The notes under the pieces are model-generated. The model ran no database searches. It saw only the letters and a program-made list of their open reading frames with translations, and was not told the DNA's origin. The position numbers were made by a program, and so were the translations under genes. Positions 35,939-41,452 of a stretch of 47,634 nt of DNA are shown here, piece by piece. The stretch comes from Alphaproteobacteria bacterium (GTDB lineage Bacteria; Pseudomonadota; Alphaproteobacteria; Bin95): contig JAJEIH010000065.1 of NCBI GenBank assembly GCA_022827685.1, forward strand, positions 1 to 47,634, in the 5' to 3' direction. Every line of letters starts with the position of its first letter. Positions within the stretch are counted from its first letter, which is position 1.

Positions 35939-36667
35939 ATGGAGTTCCTGTCTCCCGAATTGTTCGCCGCCCTCGGCGTTGCGGCTGCGGCCGGGCTGAT
36001 GCGGGGCTTTGCGGGCGTGGGGTCCGGCATGCTGATGGCGCCGGTCTTTGCCATCCTGTTCGGCCCGGTGCAGACGGTCGCGATCATCGTCCTCATGGAA
36101 ATCGTCGTCACGGGCCAGCTTCTCCCCGGCGTGCGCCGCGAGATCGACTGGAAGGTGATCGCCCCGATGGGCATTGCGGCCGCCTGCCTGATGCCCGTCG
36201 GAAGCTGGCTCCTGGTGTCGCTGGACCCCGACCTCATCGCACGGGGGATTGCCCTGGTCGTGGTGGCGTTCTCGGTCCTGCTGATGGCGGGGTGGCGCTA
36301 TGAGGGCGGGAAGAAACTCTGGGCGACGCTCGGCGTGGGGGCGTTGTCGGGGGTGCTGATGGCTTCGACCAGCCTCGGCAATCCGCCGGTCATGGCCTAC
36401 CTGCTGTCCAGCCGGGATTCGGCGGCGACCAACCGCGCGAATTTCACCGGCTACTTCGCGGTCACGCTGGTGGCGCTGATCGCCATGATGGCGGCGGCTC
36501 GCCTGATCGACGGCAGGGCGCTTCTGACAGCAGCCCTGTTGCTGCCCGTGTTCATGGCCGGCGCCTGGGCCGGCTCGCGCCTCTTCCGACGGTCCAGCGA
36601 AGTGCTCTACCGCCGCGTAGCCCTCGGCCTCCTCCTCTGCGTCGGCATGTACGGCCTGCTTCGGTGA
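35939..36667 (+). CDS. TauE/SafE family permease (sulfite exporter-like)
   Basis: A 242-residue integral membrane protein with about eight hydrophobic helices and the family N-terminal motif GLMRGFAGVGSGMLMAPVFAILFGP, repeated in weaker form at GALSGVLMASTSLGNPPVMAYLL. TauE/SafE proteins move organosulfur anions or sulfite across the inner membrane. It could be part of the two-component operon upstream (171-base gap) or independent. Substrate is inferred from the family only. It is convergent with the DprA-like gene, 13 bases away. Confidence 0.9.
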   Translation: MEFLSPELFAALGVAAAAGLMRGFAGVGSGMLMAPVFAILFGPVQTVAIIVLMEIVVTGQLLPGVRREIDWKVIAPMGIAAACLMPVGSWLLVSLDPDLIARGIALVVVAFSVLLMAGWRYEGGKKLWATLGVGALSGVLMASTSLGNPPVMAYLLSSRDSAATNRANFTGYFAVTLVALIAMMAAARLIDGRALLTAALLLPVFMAGAWAGSRLFRRSSEVLYRRVALGLLLCVGMYGLLR

Positions 36668-36680
36668 GGCGGTATGGGAC

Positions 36681-38114
36681 TCAGGTGTCGTCTGCGAACA
36701 ACGGTGCGGCGGCCCGGTATCTGACCGGGTTGGTCCGCCGGACCATTCGCCCCTCGTCGACCGCTCGTTTCAGCCAGTCCCCCGCCTGGCTTTCCCTTAC
36801 TCTGAGCTGCGCGGCGATATCGCCGATCCGCGTCGGAACGGTCGATGCGATCATCAAAGCGCGGCCGAGAAACAGCCCGTAGAATTCGCCGTCCGCAGGG
36901 CTGCGGGGGGCGCATGGCGGCATGCTGTATTGTCCGCGTCGCTTATGTGCGACGATCTGGCCGTTCGAGACTGCACGCTGCAGCCAGTCTTCCGCTTGCG
37001 GCTTCTTCAATCCGAGGCGTTTCGCGATGTGCTGCACGCCGACCGGCTTCTCCGCCGTCAGTTCGGCCATGCGGGCGAGGAAGAGCGCGTAAAGGCCACC
37101 GTCCGCCGGCGCGGGCGCGCAGGGCTCCGGCTCTTCCCGCAATTCCGCGGCGGCGGGTTCCAGCGGCAGCCGGTCCTGTCCGGCGGCACGTGCGCCCTCC
37201 ACCAGTTGCGAAAGCGGGAAGGGTTTCTCCGGCAGCCACTCCGCGCCGCGCCGGACAAGCTCCGGGTTGCCGGAACCGGGCGCGTCGTCCGGCCTTGCCC
37301 AAAGCGGCGCCCAGCCGTGCTTCAGGTTTTCTTCCGCGCCGCTCCAGGTTCCCCCCTTGCCCGCTTCGCTGCTGACGACGACTGCGGCATCGGCGAGGCA
37401 ATAGATATGGGCGTTCCGCGCCATCGCATTGCCGACATGGAAACGCGCTTCGGGATTGAACGGCGAGATGAGGGTCAGGTCGCCCGACAGGATGTATTGG
37501 CGGTAGTCGGCGGCCATCACCGACCGGAGCAGGCTGTCAGCCAGGACGCCCAGCGCCGTGCCGTCCCGTTCGAGCGCGCCCCGCATCGCATACCTGTCGA
37601 CGCCGCGCGCGCCGCCGGAAACAAGCGAACAGCCTTGCGCGGCAGCCTCGGAGCCGAGATTGGAGGCGAATTCGAGGCCGTCCTCGCCGGCGTTCCGGGA
37701 GCCGACGACGGCGATGCCGCCGCGGCCGAGGAGCGACCTGTTCCCGCAACCAAAGATGACAGGTGGCGCCGCCCTGCCGAGGCGCCGCTTCAGGCGCTCC
37801 GGGTAATCGGCGTCGGAGCGGGTCAGCACCCAGAGCCCGGCGCGTTCCCACCGTTCGAGCGAGAGGCCGAGCGCGGCGCCCCGGTTCAGGAGCGCGCGCA
37901 GGCGGTCTCGCGTGACGGTCCGGTCCTCCCAGCCGTCGAGCAGCGCGTCGAGATCGCCTTTCAGCAGAACGGACGGCTCCAGCCCGTTATCGTGCAGCCA
38001 GGCGGCGAACCGCGCCCATTCCTGCCGGGAGAGCGGCCTGCTGCCGCCGGAGTCGGACTTCCCGAGGGAGACATTCAACAGCAGCACAGCCTGGGCTTGG
38101 CGTGTCAGCAGCAT
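36681..38114 (-). CDS. DprA-like (SLOG) protein with duplicated winged-helix domains
   Basis: A 477-residue protein. A helical N-terminal region (about 1-110) leads into a Rossmann-like DprA/SLOG domain (about 115-280) with AVVGSRNAG (135-143), the LVSGGARGVDRYAM motif (164-177), and NAHIYCLADAAVVVSSEAGK then GGTWSGA. The KGGTW form differs from housekeeping DprA, which loads RecA on incoming ssDNA. Two similar C-terminal winged-helix-like repeats follow (339-396 and 409-466, sharing GxxYxLFLxR and AxDWLxRAVxxGxxV). GGAG precedes the ATG at 38114, nine bases after the RecQ-PRTase stop, so the two form an operon. It probably senses DNA or a nucleotide; a defence role is inferred, not shown. 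Confidence 0.85.
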   Translation of the reverse strand: MLLTRQAQAVLLLNVSLGKSDSGGSRPLSRQEWARFAAWLHDNGLEPSVLLKGDLDALLDGWEDRTVTRDRLRALLNRGAALGLSLERWERAGLWVLTRSDADYPERLKRRLGRAAPPVIFGCGNRSLLGRGGIAVVGSRNAGEDGLEFASNLGSEAAAQGCSLVSGGARGVDRYAMRGALERDGTALGVLADSLLRSVMAADYRQYILSGDLTLISPFNPEARFHVGNAMARNAHIYCLADAAVVVSSEAGKGGTWSGAEENLKHGWAPLWARPDDAPGSGNPELVRRGAEWLPEKPFPLSQLVEGARAAGQDRLPLEPAAAELREEPEPCAPAPADGGLYALFLARMAELTAEKPVGVQHIAKRLGLKKPQAEDWLQRAVSNGQIVAHKRRGQYSMPPCAPRSPADGEFYGLFLGRALMIASTVPTRIGDIAAQLRVRESQAGDWLKRAVDEGRMVRRTNPVRYRAAAPLFADDT

Positions 38115-38123
38115 GGTGCGCTC

Positions 38124-40220
38124 CTATCGGGCCGTCGCCAGGGCCAACGGCCATACGGGACCGCTGCCGGCCTGCCGGAGCAGAGCGGCCACGACCGTCA
38201 TCGTCCAGGCCGAGTCCACGACATCATCCACAAGCAGGACGGGGTCGGTGGGCGGCTTGCCGGTGACGGTGAACACGCCGTCGAGATTGCGGCACTGGTG
38301 AAACCTGTTCTGCTGGAACTTCTGCGGCTCGTTGTCCTTTGCCTTCTCCACCAGCGGCAGGAACGTCAGTCCGAGTTTTTCTGCGAGCCGGGCTGCGAAA
38401 TCGGGCACCAGCTCGGGCCGGTTTCTGGAGGGTATGCATGTCACCCACGCCGGCTCCGGCATCGGCCGCCAGCGGCCTCGGATCATTTCGGCCGCGGCAA
38501 CGACCAGATCGTCGTCGAAATGTCCCTGATGCTTGCCTTCGGCGACCAGTTCTCCCCAGCCCGTGTCGTTCCAGCGTGACAGGGCGCGTCCCTTCTGGGC
38601 CTGCATCTCGTCAGAAAGCCTCCCTTCGAAGCCGTATTGGGCGAAGGCGTCCCGCGCGACCCACTTCTTGCATCTGAGATCGGTCTCGGACCGGCGCAGA
38701 AAACGTATCGCGTCTTTTTCCAGGCGGCCCTTGTAGGAGCGCGCGACGATAGGGTCTCCGACGCAGTTGGCGCATTTCCCGCACCGCTGGGGGTCTTTGT
38801 CGTCGAGTGAGCGGGCCAGGAACTCCATCAGGCAGCCGGGTTCGTCCAGAAAGGTCCGGACCTCGTTCCATTCGACTCTGCGTTGAGCCGTCAGCCGTCG
38901 GATGCGCTCGAGGTCCATCCGGTAGTGAACGGCTGTCCGATGCCATTTCGCGCCATCCCTGAATACCGGGGCCGGCGCCTCCATCGAGAGGAACTTGAGC
39001 GCCTGCTCGATTTGCCCGCGGCGCAGATTGACGGCCTCTTCGAGTTGGCGAAGCGACATCCCCTCGCCCTTTTCCAGAGCCGTGAGGATCGACTCGACCC
39101 ATTGCTCGTCGGGAAAGGCATTGCTGCGGAACCAGTCGTGTATGTCGTCGTCTTCCCGGCCGGACATGAGGACGCAAACGGCGCGGTCGATGGCCCGCCC
39201 GGCGCGGCCCACCTGCTGGTAGTAGGCAATGATCGAGCCGGGTGCCTGGTAATGGATGACGAAACCGAGATCGGGCTTGTCGTAGCCCATGCCGAGCGCC
39301 GTCGTCGCCACTAGCGCCTTGATCCCGTTGCCCAGAAGAAGGTCTTCGAGATGCTGCCTGTAGCCATTGCTGTCGGTAAACCTGTCGCCGGTCACGCCGC
39401 TGTAATACGGTTTGGCGGCGATGCCGTTCCGGTTCAGCCAGGCGGAGACCTGGTCCGCGTCGCGCTTGGTCAGAGTGTAGATGATCCCGGTACCGGGAAG
39501 CTCGTTCAGGTGCTCCGCCAGCCATGCGAGGCGAATGGCCTGACTCGGTACGCGCATCGCCTGCAGTTCGAGCGATTGCCTCATCAGCGGACCGCGCTGC
39601 ACCTTGATATTGCCGAGTTGGGTCTGGACGTCCTCGATGACTCTGTCGTTCGCCGTCGCCGTCGTGCCGACGACGGGCAGATTCTCGGGCATCGACCGCA
39701 GGATATTGACCAGGCGCCGGTAGTCGGGGCGGAAATCGTGTCCCCAGTCCGAGATGCAGTGGGCCTCATCGACGACCAGCAGCCCGATATTTCCGGCAAT
39801 CGGCATCAGCACTTCGTTCGCGAACTCGTCATTTGCCAGGCGTTCCGGCGAGATCAGGAGGGCGTCGGCTTCGCCTGCCCGAATGGTTCGCTGAAGCTCC
39901 GGCCAGTCGTCCCGGTTCGCGGAGTTGATCGTCAACGCGCGGATGCCGAGCCGTTCGGCCGCCTCGATCTGGTTGCGCATCAGAGCCAGCAAGGGCGATA
40001 CGATAAGCGCCGGGCCCTGACCCCTGTTCCGGAGAATCCGGGTCGCCACGAAATACACGGCGCTCTTGCCCCAGCCGGTCCGTTCCACGACCAGCAGCCG
40101 CTCCCGGCGGTTCGCCAGTGCGTCGATGGCTTCCCACTGGCCGGGGCGGAACGATGCCGTCGGATCGGCCAGCGCGGTGCGGAGCATGGCAAGCGCGGCG
40201 GTTTGGGTCGTGACTCCCAT
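38124..40220 (-). CDS. RecQ-type helicase fused to a phosphoribosyltransferase domain
   Basis: A 698-residue fusion. The N-terminal RecQ-like superfamily 2 helicase has Walker A ERTGWGKS (46-53), DEAHCISDWGHDFRPDY (151-167), TTATAN, ALGMGYDKPD and motif VI QQVGRAGRA (336-343); the zinc site is Cys463 with RCGKCANC (480, 483, 486). The last 110 residues form a ComF-like phosphoribosyltransferase with the PRPP loop VLLVDDVVDSAWT (661-673). The helicase lacks the HRDC domain of true RecQ and has GWGKS in place of GGGKS. The ATG at 40220 is used; another at 40277 is also possible. It lies nine bases upstream of the DprA-like gene. It is not the housekeeping RecQ; a nucleotide-linked defence or DNA-uptake-control role is plausible. 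Confidence 0.85.
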   Translation of the reverse strand: MGVTTQTAALAMLRTALADPTASFRPGQWEAIDALANRRERLLVVERTGWGKSAVYFVATRILRNRGQGPALIVSPLLALMRNQIEAAERLGIRALTINSANRDDWPELQRTIRAGEADALLISPERLANDEFANEVLMPIAGNIGLLVVDEAHCISDWGHDFRPDYRRLVNILRSMPENLPVVGTTATANDRVIEDVQTQLGNIKVQRGPLMRQSLELQAMRVPSQAIRLAWLAEHLNELPGTGIIYTLTKRDADQVSAWLNRNGIAAKPYYSGVTGDRFTDSNGYRQHLEDLLLGNGIKALVATTALGMGYDKPDLGFVIHYQAPGSIIAYYQQVGRAGRAIDRAVCVLMSGREDDDIHDWFRSNAFPDEQWVESILTALEKGEGMSLRQLEEAVNLRRGQIEQALKFLSMEAPAPVFRDGAKWHRTAVHYRMDLERIRRLTAQRRVEWNEVRTFLDEPGCLMEFLARSLDDKDPQRCGKCANCVGDPIVARSYKGRLEKDAIRFLRRSETDLRCKKWVARDAFAQYGFEGRLSDEMQAQKGRALSRWNDTGWGELVAEGKHQGHFDDDLVVAAAEMIRGRWRPMPEPAWVTCIPSRNRPELVPDFAARLAEKLGLTFLPLVEKAKDNEPQKFQQNRFHQCRNLDGVFTVTGKPPTDPVLLVDDVVDSAWTMTVVAALLRQAGSGPVWPLALATAR

Positions 40221-40330
40221 CGGGCCGTTTCGACCGACTCTCCGCGAACCTCCCGCCCCTCCCCTGCGGCTCCTCATTCCGTTACCGCCTCGCGGGGCCG
40301 GCCGGCGGGATGAACCTCATCGGCGACTCC

Positions 40331-41452
40331 TCAAACCAACGGCTGCCGGCCGCCATTGTCGCCGAAGGCCTGTTCGCGGTAGAGGCCGAGCGCGCGCATG
40401 ACCGGGAGGTCGGAGAGGCAGAACAGGCAGGCGTCTTCGGTCTCCGAGGCGTTCGCATGCTCGTGCCAGGCCCAGGACGGCACGCAGAAGATGTCGCGCT
40501 CGGACCAGTCGTAACGCTTGCCGTCGATGATCGAGTGGCCGCTTCCCATCGCCACATGGTAGAGGAAACTGCCGGTATGGCGGTGCGCCCGGGTGTGCTC
40601 GCCGGGCCGCAGCAATTGCATGCTGGCGCCCATGGTCTGCATCACCGGCCCGTTGGTCGCCGGGTTCACGTATTCCATCAACACGCCGTCATGCGGCGAG
40701 CCGTCGGTGCATTCGGCGTAGTTGCGCAGCGCCTCATAGGTGGGCCACCACTCATATTTGAACAGGGGCGAATAACCCTCGGTCCAGGCGCCGCCCGCCG
40801 GGGTGAGCCCCGGATTGCCCCAGGATTTCGTCACGTCGTCCACCTCGAAGGCGACGGCCTGGGCGAGGTCCGGATGCACCTCGTAGAAATTCGCCTCCAT
40901 GGCGTTGACGAAGGGGATGTCGAGGCCGTCCTGCCAGATGCAGGTGCTTCCCGCCGCCTCGACCCCGTGTTCGTGCCAGGTGCCGTTCGGGGTCAGCACG
41001 AAGTCGTTCCTGCCCAGCGTTATCTTGTGGCCGTCCACGACCGTGTAGGCGCCTTCGCCCTCCATGATGAAGCGGATCGCGGAGGCCGAATGGCGGTGCG
41101 CGCTCGCGGCCTCGCCCGGCTTCATCGCCTGCAGGCCGGCATAGATCCAGCCCACCGCCGCCGCCACGTCCCGGCGGCCGGGATTGTTGAGATAGACGAC
41201 CCGCCGGCCCGCCTCTTCAGGCGTCACCAGGTCGAGGGACCGCAGCACATGGCCGCGCAGCGCACGGTAACGCCAGACGACGGGGACGGACTGCGAGACG
41301 GGCTCCCACGGCTCGATCCTGTTGGCGACCGTCCACAAGGCGCCGGCGTCGAGCCCGTCGAGCTCGTCGTAATAGGCCAGCAGTTCCGGCGTATCCGCGA
41401 CATTCGCCCTGCCGGGCGTGTCCTCCCGGTAATTCTCGTGCTTCCTGTCCAT
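40331..41452 (-). CDS. Gentisate 1,2-dioxygenase-like bicupin
   Basis: A 373-residue protein with two cupin domains. The first (about 100-180) carries the iron ligands His119, His121 and His160 in SAHRHSASAIRF and GTWHEHG; the second (about 275-345) repeats the pattern as TRAHRHTGSFLYHV and WAWHEH. Gentisate dioxygenases cleave the ring of gentisate to maleylpyruvate with Fe(II). GGGAGG precedes the ATG at 41452 by eight bases. It follows an LLM monooxygenase gene by 42 bases, a typical pairing in aromatic degradation. The second cupin domain also has full histidine ligands, which is uncommon in single-site members; salicylate or 1-hydroxy-2-naphthoate dioxygenase are alternatives. Confidence 0.88.
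   Translation of the reverse strand: MDRKHENYREDTPGRANVADTPELLAYYDELDGLDAGALWTVANRIEPWEPVSQSVPVVWRYRALRGHVLRSLDLVTPEEAGRRVVYLNNPGRRDVAAAVGWIYAGLQAMKPGEAASAHRHSASAIRFIMEGEGAYTVVDGHKITLGRNDFVLTPNGTWHEHGVEAAGSTCIWQDGLDIPFVNAMEANFYEVHPDLAQAVAFEVDDVTKSWGNPGLTPAGGAWTEGYSPLFKYEWWPTYEALRNYAECTDGSPHDGVLMEYVNPATNGPVMQTMGASMQLLRPGEHTRAHRHTGSFLYHVAMGSGHSIIDGKRYDWSERDIFCVPSWAWHEHANASETEDACLFCLSDLPVMRALGLYREQAFGDNGGRQPLV

Follow-up and report, generated by a model that had tools for sequence, protein, structure and literature searches.

The gene pair on the minus strand at 36681–40220 of the window (the whole analysed stretch, 47,634 nucleotides) was recognized, by its sequence, as the known toxin-antitoxin pair PsyrTA, also described as RqlHI. 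PsyrTA is a validated toxin-antitoxin family from Pseudomonas syringae, as the work of Sberro et al. (2013) is cited in PMC8790059, and extraintestinal E. coli has this gene arrangement under the name RqlHI (Russell and Mulvey, 2015; PMC4670107). We consider it likely that the window pair operates as a module of this type, with a toxicity that would be borne by the phosphoribosyltransferase (PRTase) domain of PsyrT and restrained by the helicase and by PsyrA. The pair extends a known system, and its only unexpected features are the tandem winged helices of the antitoxin and the apparent exchange of this tail, the swap being the fresh detail.

Domain composition and identity of the two genes

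Two open reading frames were found on the minus strand as described in the first-pass annotation of this DNA. The toxin gene psyrT (rqlH), located at 38124–40220 on the minus strand, encodes a RecQ-like helicase with a C-terminal PRTase, a combination seen by Pfam, PADLOC, the structural model and the fold comparison. A start at 40220 gives 698 aa, and the longest open frame, from 40277, gives 717 residues; the former is the better start, since the PADLOC PsyrT profile alignment (E 2.6e-293; residues 25–716 of the 717-residue frame against positions 5–684 of 689) begins at residue 25 of the longer version. The TAG stop of psyrT at 38126–38124 is followed by nine bases and then by the ATG of psyrA (rqlI) at 38114, the DprA-like antitoxin gene lying directly downstream on the same strand (36681–38114, minus strand, 477 aa). 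Its product matched the PADLOC PsyrA model with an E-value of 8.7e-149 (residues 1–397 against 1–395 of 398), while the ShosA models matched it weakly (E 1.6e-22). Against their E. coli counterparts of the rqlH and rqlI type, the window toxin and antitoxin showed 57% identity over 689 aa and 42% over 392 aa, respectively. The E. coli chromosomal copy has its Walker A lysine at position 49, the DEAH aspartate at 148 and the DIVD motif from 663, which are the mutated residues of the published RqlH (PMC4670107). The window numbers are all higher by three, and the helicase and PRPP-loop residues required in RqlH (K49, D148 and D663) are conserved as K52, D151 and D666.

The SF2/RecQ helicase core of the toxin (DEAD plus Helicase_C; 39192–40148, minus strand), placed by Pfam and motif positions, includes the Walker A motif GWGKS with K52 (40062–40076, minus strand) and a DEAH box with D151, both invariant in 14 homologues. 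The RecQ zinc cysteines are present and a Pfam scan of the toxin gave no match to HRDC, in agreement with the earlier description of a RecQ-like helicase lacking this domain.

The PRTase domain makes up the C-terminal 199 aa of the toxin (38127–38723, minus strand) and is supported by an AlphaFold2 model (pLDDT 92) and fold comparison. Pfam PF00156 scored 24.3 bits in the protein scan, just below its cut-off of 26.3, and 27.2 bits in the genome scan, and a profile search against PDB sequences found PRPP synthetase loops alone (E ~6e-4), for which reason the fold comparison was needed. The closest solved fold was that of H. pylori ComF (7p0h; Z 15.0 over 168 residues at 3.4 Å, VIA-align), which bears out the ComF-type assignment made earlier, followed by ShosT with PRPP-Mg (8zvc; Z 11.4), narrowly above the adenine PRTases (~10.5). 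The PRPP loop LLVDDVVDSAWT with D665, D666 and D669 was located at 38202–38237 on the minus strand. It had been described as intact, which is correct for the acid pair, but VLLVDDVVDSAWT has the family-typical DSxWT in place of the usual TTGxT. D665, D666, S670, W672 and T673 were invariant in the 14 homologues.

In PsyrA an N-terminal region precedes the DprA/SLOG domain, which is followed by two winged-helix units. The SLOG/DprA Rossmann domain (37233–37850, minus strand) was recognized by Pfam PF02481 (E 7.1e-37) and by a fold match, and the KGGTW motif occupies aa 253–257 (37344–37358, minus strand). Winged-helix unit 1 (aa 337–408; 36891–37106, minus strand) was defined from the AlphaFold2 secondary structure and the alignment; unit 2 (aa 409–477; 36684–36890, minus strand) is its tandem copy and falls outside the PsyrA model, which ends at position 398. 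The SLOG domain, the motif and the duplicated winged helices had all been noticed in the first reading. The AlphaFold2 model of PsyrA (pLDDT 83) matched DprA of Rhodopseudomonas and Streptococcus (3uqz, 3maj) and E. coli ShosA (8zva), and the sequence search also found the ShosA chain 9vzo. Because the PRTase matched ShosT and the antitoxin matched ShosA in structure, the window pair is also related to ShosTA.

The two proteins were far from their housekeeping counterparts. The toxin scored 253.8 bits with the canonical RecQ model TIGR01389 (cut-off 640.2), and a true recQ with 783 bits is present elsewhere in the same genome; the antitoxin scored 78.6 bits with the canonical DprA model TIGR00732 (equivalog cut-off 191.15), and a second gene with a much stronger DprA domain is located elsewhere. 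For the ComF model TIGR00201 the score was 14.7 bits against a family cut-off of 233.55, despite the ComF-like fold, and other PRTase genes are present in the genome. The separate housekeeping recQ and dprA had been anticipated in the annotation, and on their account a fusion of housekeeping genes was rejected; an assignment to canonical competence proteins was discarded on the missed dprA and comF cut-offs. The view of the pair as an uncharacterised combination was abandoned, given that it is already catalogued (PADLOC PsyrTA) and published (RqlHI). Elsewhere in the window genome, an open frame of 272 aa encodes part of a RecQ helicase core (G000:C10:4512-5279; E 6e-64 to PsyrT) and is either a third RecQ-like gene or a fragment.

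Distribution and genomic context

Because a search with the PsyrT family hits ordinary RecQ in all genomes, the distribution was scored by PsyrA, with E ≤ 1e-40 for the class and phylum samples. The pair was present in six of the eight genomes of the genus and in none of the six genomes from other genera of the order, and PsyrA was detected in 10 of 385 class genomes and 14 of 398 phylum genomes sampled. No PsyrA relatives were found in phage records at E ≤ 1e-20.

In the window the pair occupies an accessory segment of 3,663 bp (36668–40330) between a gene for a TauE/SafE permease (35939–36667, plus strand), convergent with psyrA, and a gene for a cupin protein (40331–41452, minus strand), both assigned by Pfam and both outside the system. 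Each of the two flanks was conserved in seven of the eight genus genomes. In genome G006 the pair is absent, and 78 bp separate the TauE gene from the cupin gene (contig C408, 4153–4236); this assembly is 75% complete, the empty site itself being intact. Five of the six carriers have both flanks as in the window, G003 having them over two contigs. The pair is accessory, and the core and syntenic presence in all relatives, named in the annotation as an argument against its proposal, was not observed, one relative having an empty site.

Several irregularities were seen among the carriers. The cupin gene of G004 is on another contig and a different segment lies upstream of psyrT (L064, contig C211, 16934–18651; L065), so that this site seems to be rearranged. 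In G005 (L066) and G003 (L063) the interval between psyrA and the TauE gene is longer by some 0.67 kb. In G007 an in-frame stop (L068, contig C225, 6828–6830) splits psyrT in two next to an intact psyrA, reflecting either decay or an assembly error.

The flanks in the window comprise a two-component system, the permease, the cupin protein, a luciferase-like enzyme and an MFS transporter, and no defence genes were recognized among these neighbours. Surrounding genes were also listed for other copies, on the basis of rough gene calls. One PsyrTA pair, from E. coli, lies inside a type I restriction operon of a conjugative IncF plasmid, in the order hsdM-hsdS-[pair]-hsdR (L100, NZ_OX030731.1, 511–10590). 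At another locus (L077) the pair adjoins a pglX gene, and the neighbours pooled over the loci also match PglZ and BrxC of the BREX family.

Variation of the antitoxin tail

The number of winged-helix units among the aligned PsyrA homologues varied from none to two. Homologues of about 325–330 aa without any winged-helix tail, accompanied by a full PsyrT partner, were found in G096 (L071, 2421–3395) and G555 (L080, 9024–10007).

Within the genus the tail, corresponding to window positions 36681–37106, fell into two allele classes, one including the window, G003 and G005 and the other G002, G004 and G007, the comparison covering the window and the corresponding stretches of L061, L063, L064, L066 and L068. 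The tails were 65–70% identical between the classes and 82–98% within them; for the flanks, as for the N-terminal and SLOG portions of PsyrA, the identity across the same genomes was 80–98%. In G007 both flanking genes were nearest to those of the window and the tail belonged to the other class. The tail tree rejected both the topology of the flanking gene (AU p ~1e-39) and that of the rest of psyrA (~1e-38), and the flanking gene rejected the tail topology (p 0.0003), the psyrA core and the flank being in agreement. Metagenome assemblies account for at least four of these genomes, but each tail class was seen in three separate assemblies. The pattern is best read as an exchange of the tail by recombination between related bacteria.

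Because the helix-turn-helix (HTH) of RqlI is dispensable for neutralisation (PMC4670107), the exchanged tail more likely concerns recognition of DNA or of a trigger, or autoregulation. We tentatively suggest, as a possibility of rather low probability, that the tandem winged-helix tail might be an exchangeable recognition module over a constant core of toxin, PRTase and SLOG domain; such a module would determine the signal or the operator recognised by the antitoxin and hence the range of triggers. The genus is suited as a natural test set, for it provides six copies of the pair, one site without it and two tail classes on a common core.

Probable working of the pair and comparison with known systems

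In E. coli, RqlH without RqlI caused SOS induction, filamentation, mutation and loss of growth; this toxicity was abolished by removal of the PRTase or by the D663A replacement and modulated by helicase residues, and it was neutralised by RqlI, whose co-immunoprecipitation with RqlH required the PRTase (PMC4670107). From these E. coli findings, the window pair is most likely a toxin-antitoxin pair, and a genotoxic PRTase effector is its most likely working by analogy. The gene order, the conserved helicase and PRPP-loop residues, the folds and the accessory distribution speak for this reading. The toxicity of PsyrT would be located in the C-terminal PRTase, which may use PRPP and disturb nucleotides or DNA, and would be kept in check by the helicase domain and by PsyrA, the latter binding the PRTase. 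This restraint would fail probably when an invader disturbs the host DNA or the DNA-bound PsyrA, and the freed PRTase would then damage DNA, induce SOS and lead to filamentation and arrested growth, with the outcome that either an infection would be aborted or a loss of the genes punished. We infer that the window pair would behave in the same way, and likewise its trigger, chemistry and benefit in defence; the literature consulted did not yield a substrate, product or trigger for the RecQ-PRTase toxin. Toxicity is not universal, because many Gram-positive bacteria have rqlH without rqlI.

A use of the window pair in defence is probable by analogy, and its benefit to the host is less certain than its mechanism. 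The position of other copies within a type I restriction operon and beside a BREX-type gene speaks in favour of the main reading. A DprA-PRTase pair protects E. coli against T7 and lambda (PMC9122126), while the PsyrTA of E. coli NILS69 gave no detectable phage protection in the assays used and slowed growth (PMC12409345), and the immediate neighbours in the window, ordinary metabolic and regulatory genes, argue against defence. The earlier proposal of a defence or conflict system was right in kind, as judged from the PADLOC PsyrTA assignment and the toxin-antitoxin literature on RqlHI, but it distributed the roles differently: toxicity is expected of the PRTase, with the DprA-like protein acting as antitoxin and the helicase modulating the toxin, and nothing was found to suggest that the helicase attacks foreign DNA by unwinding it.

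Rather unlikely in our estimate, a module for genome maintenance would have PsyrT and PsyrA acting on the stalled or damaged DNA of their own host, the toxicity arising only incidentally when the pair is broken. This comes near to the cooperative function on DNA proposed by the authors of RqlHI (PMC4670107), all of whose phenotypes are those of DNA stress, and it agrees with the single fixed site in the genus and with the psyrA core following the flanking-gene tree; nevertheless, the rarity in the class and phylum samples, the clean absence in G006 and the positions in restriction or BREX clusters elsewhere count against a maintenance function. The same fixed site, together with the chromosome-like context and lack of an evident mobile element, speaks against a purely selfish addiction module, whose loss would be lethal and from which the host would gain nothing. 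In favour of such addiction, the E. coli homologue behaves as a toxin-antitoxin pair, deletion of rqlHI had no fitness effect in the assays used (PMC4670107) and the pair is carried on a plasmid; we nevertheless regard it as improbable, since addiction alone would not predict a diversified winged-helix tail. A module for DNA uptake assembled from comF- and dprA-like functions appears highly improbable: its PRTase fold is indeed closest to ComF, but both scores (78.6 against 191 bits for dprA and 14.7 against 234 for comF) fall far below the family cut-offs, the genome has its housekeeping dprA elsewhere and few genomes carry the pair.

The toxin-antitoxin reading can be set against the known systems as follows. 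Housekeeping RecQ and DprA share the helicase core and the SLOG domain with the window pair, but they are encoded by separate genes of the window genome, and the window toxin is devoid of HRDC and has an added PRTase. ComFC of H. pylori (7p0h; PMC9005727), the closest solved fold, is a free-standing competence protein that carries a zinc finger of its own and a canonical DDIITTGTT loop, in contrast to the window PRTase, which is fused to a helicase and has the loop DDVVDSAWT. ShosTA (Rousset, 2022; PMC9122126) likewise combines a PRTase toxin with a DprA-like antitoxin. According to the summary of Pu et al. (2025) in PMC12593503, ShosT acts both as a phosphoribosyl transferase and as a pyrophosphatase, perturbs purine metabolism and leads to DNA damage, and in the same account ShosA counters ShosT by DNA binding, with T7 Gp0.7 as a trigger. 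The ShosTA toxin has no RecQ helicase and its partner is ShosA, whereas in the window toxin a RecQ helicase is fused to the PRTase. The PsyrTA models of PADLOC fit both window proteins almost end to end, with the window PsyrA extending about 80 residues beyond the model end by its second winged helix. RqlHI has the same gene order, a RecQ-like helicase with C-terminal PRTase and a DprA-like HTH partner, but it occupies another chromosomal site, is 57% and 42% identical in its two proteins, and has one HTH in RqlI where the window PsyrA has two winged helices.
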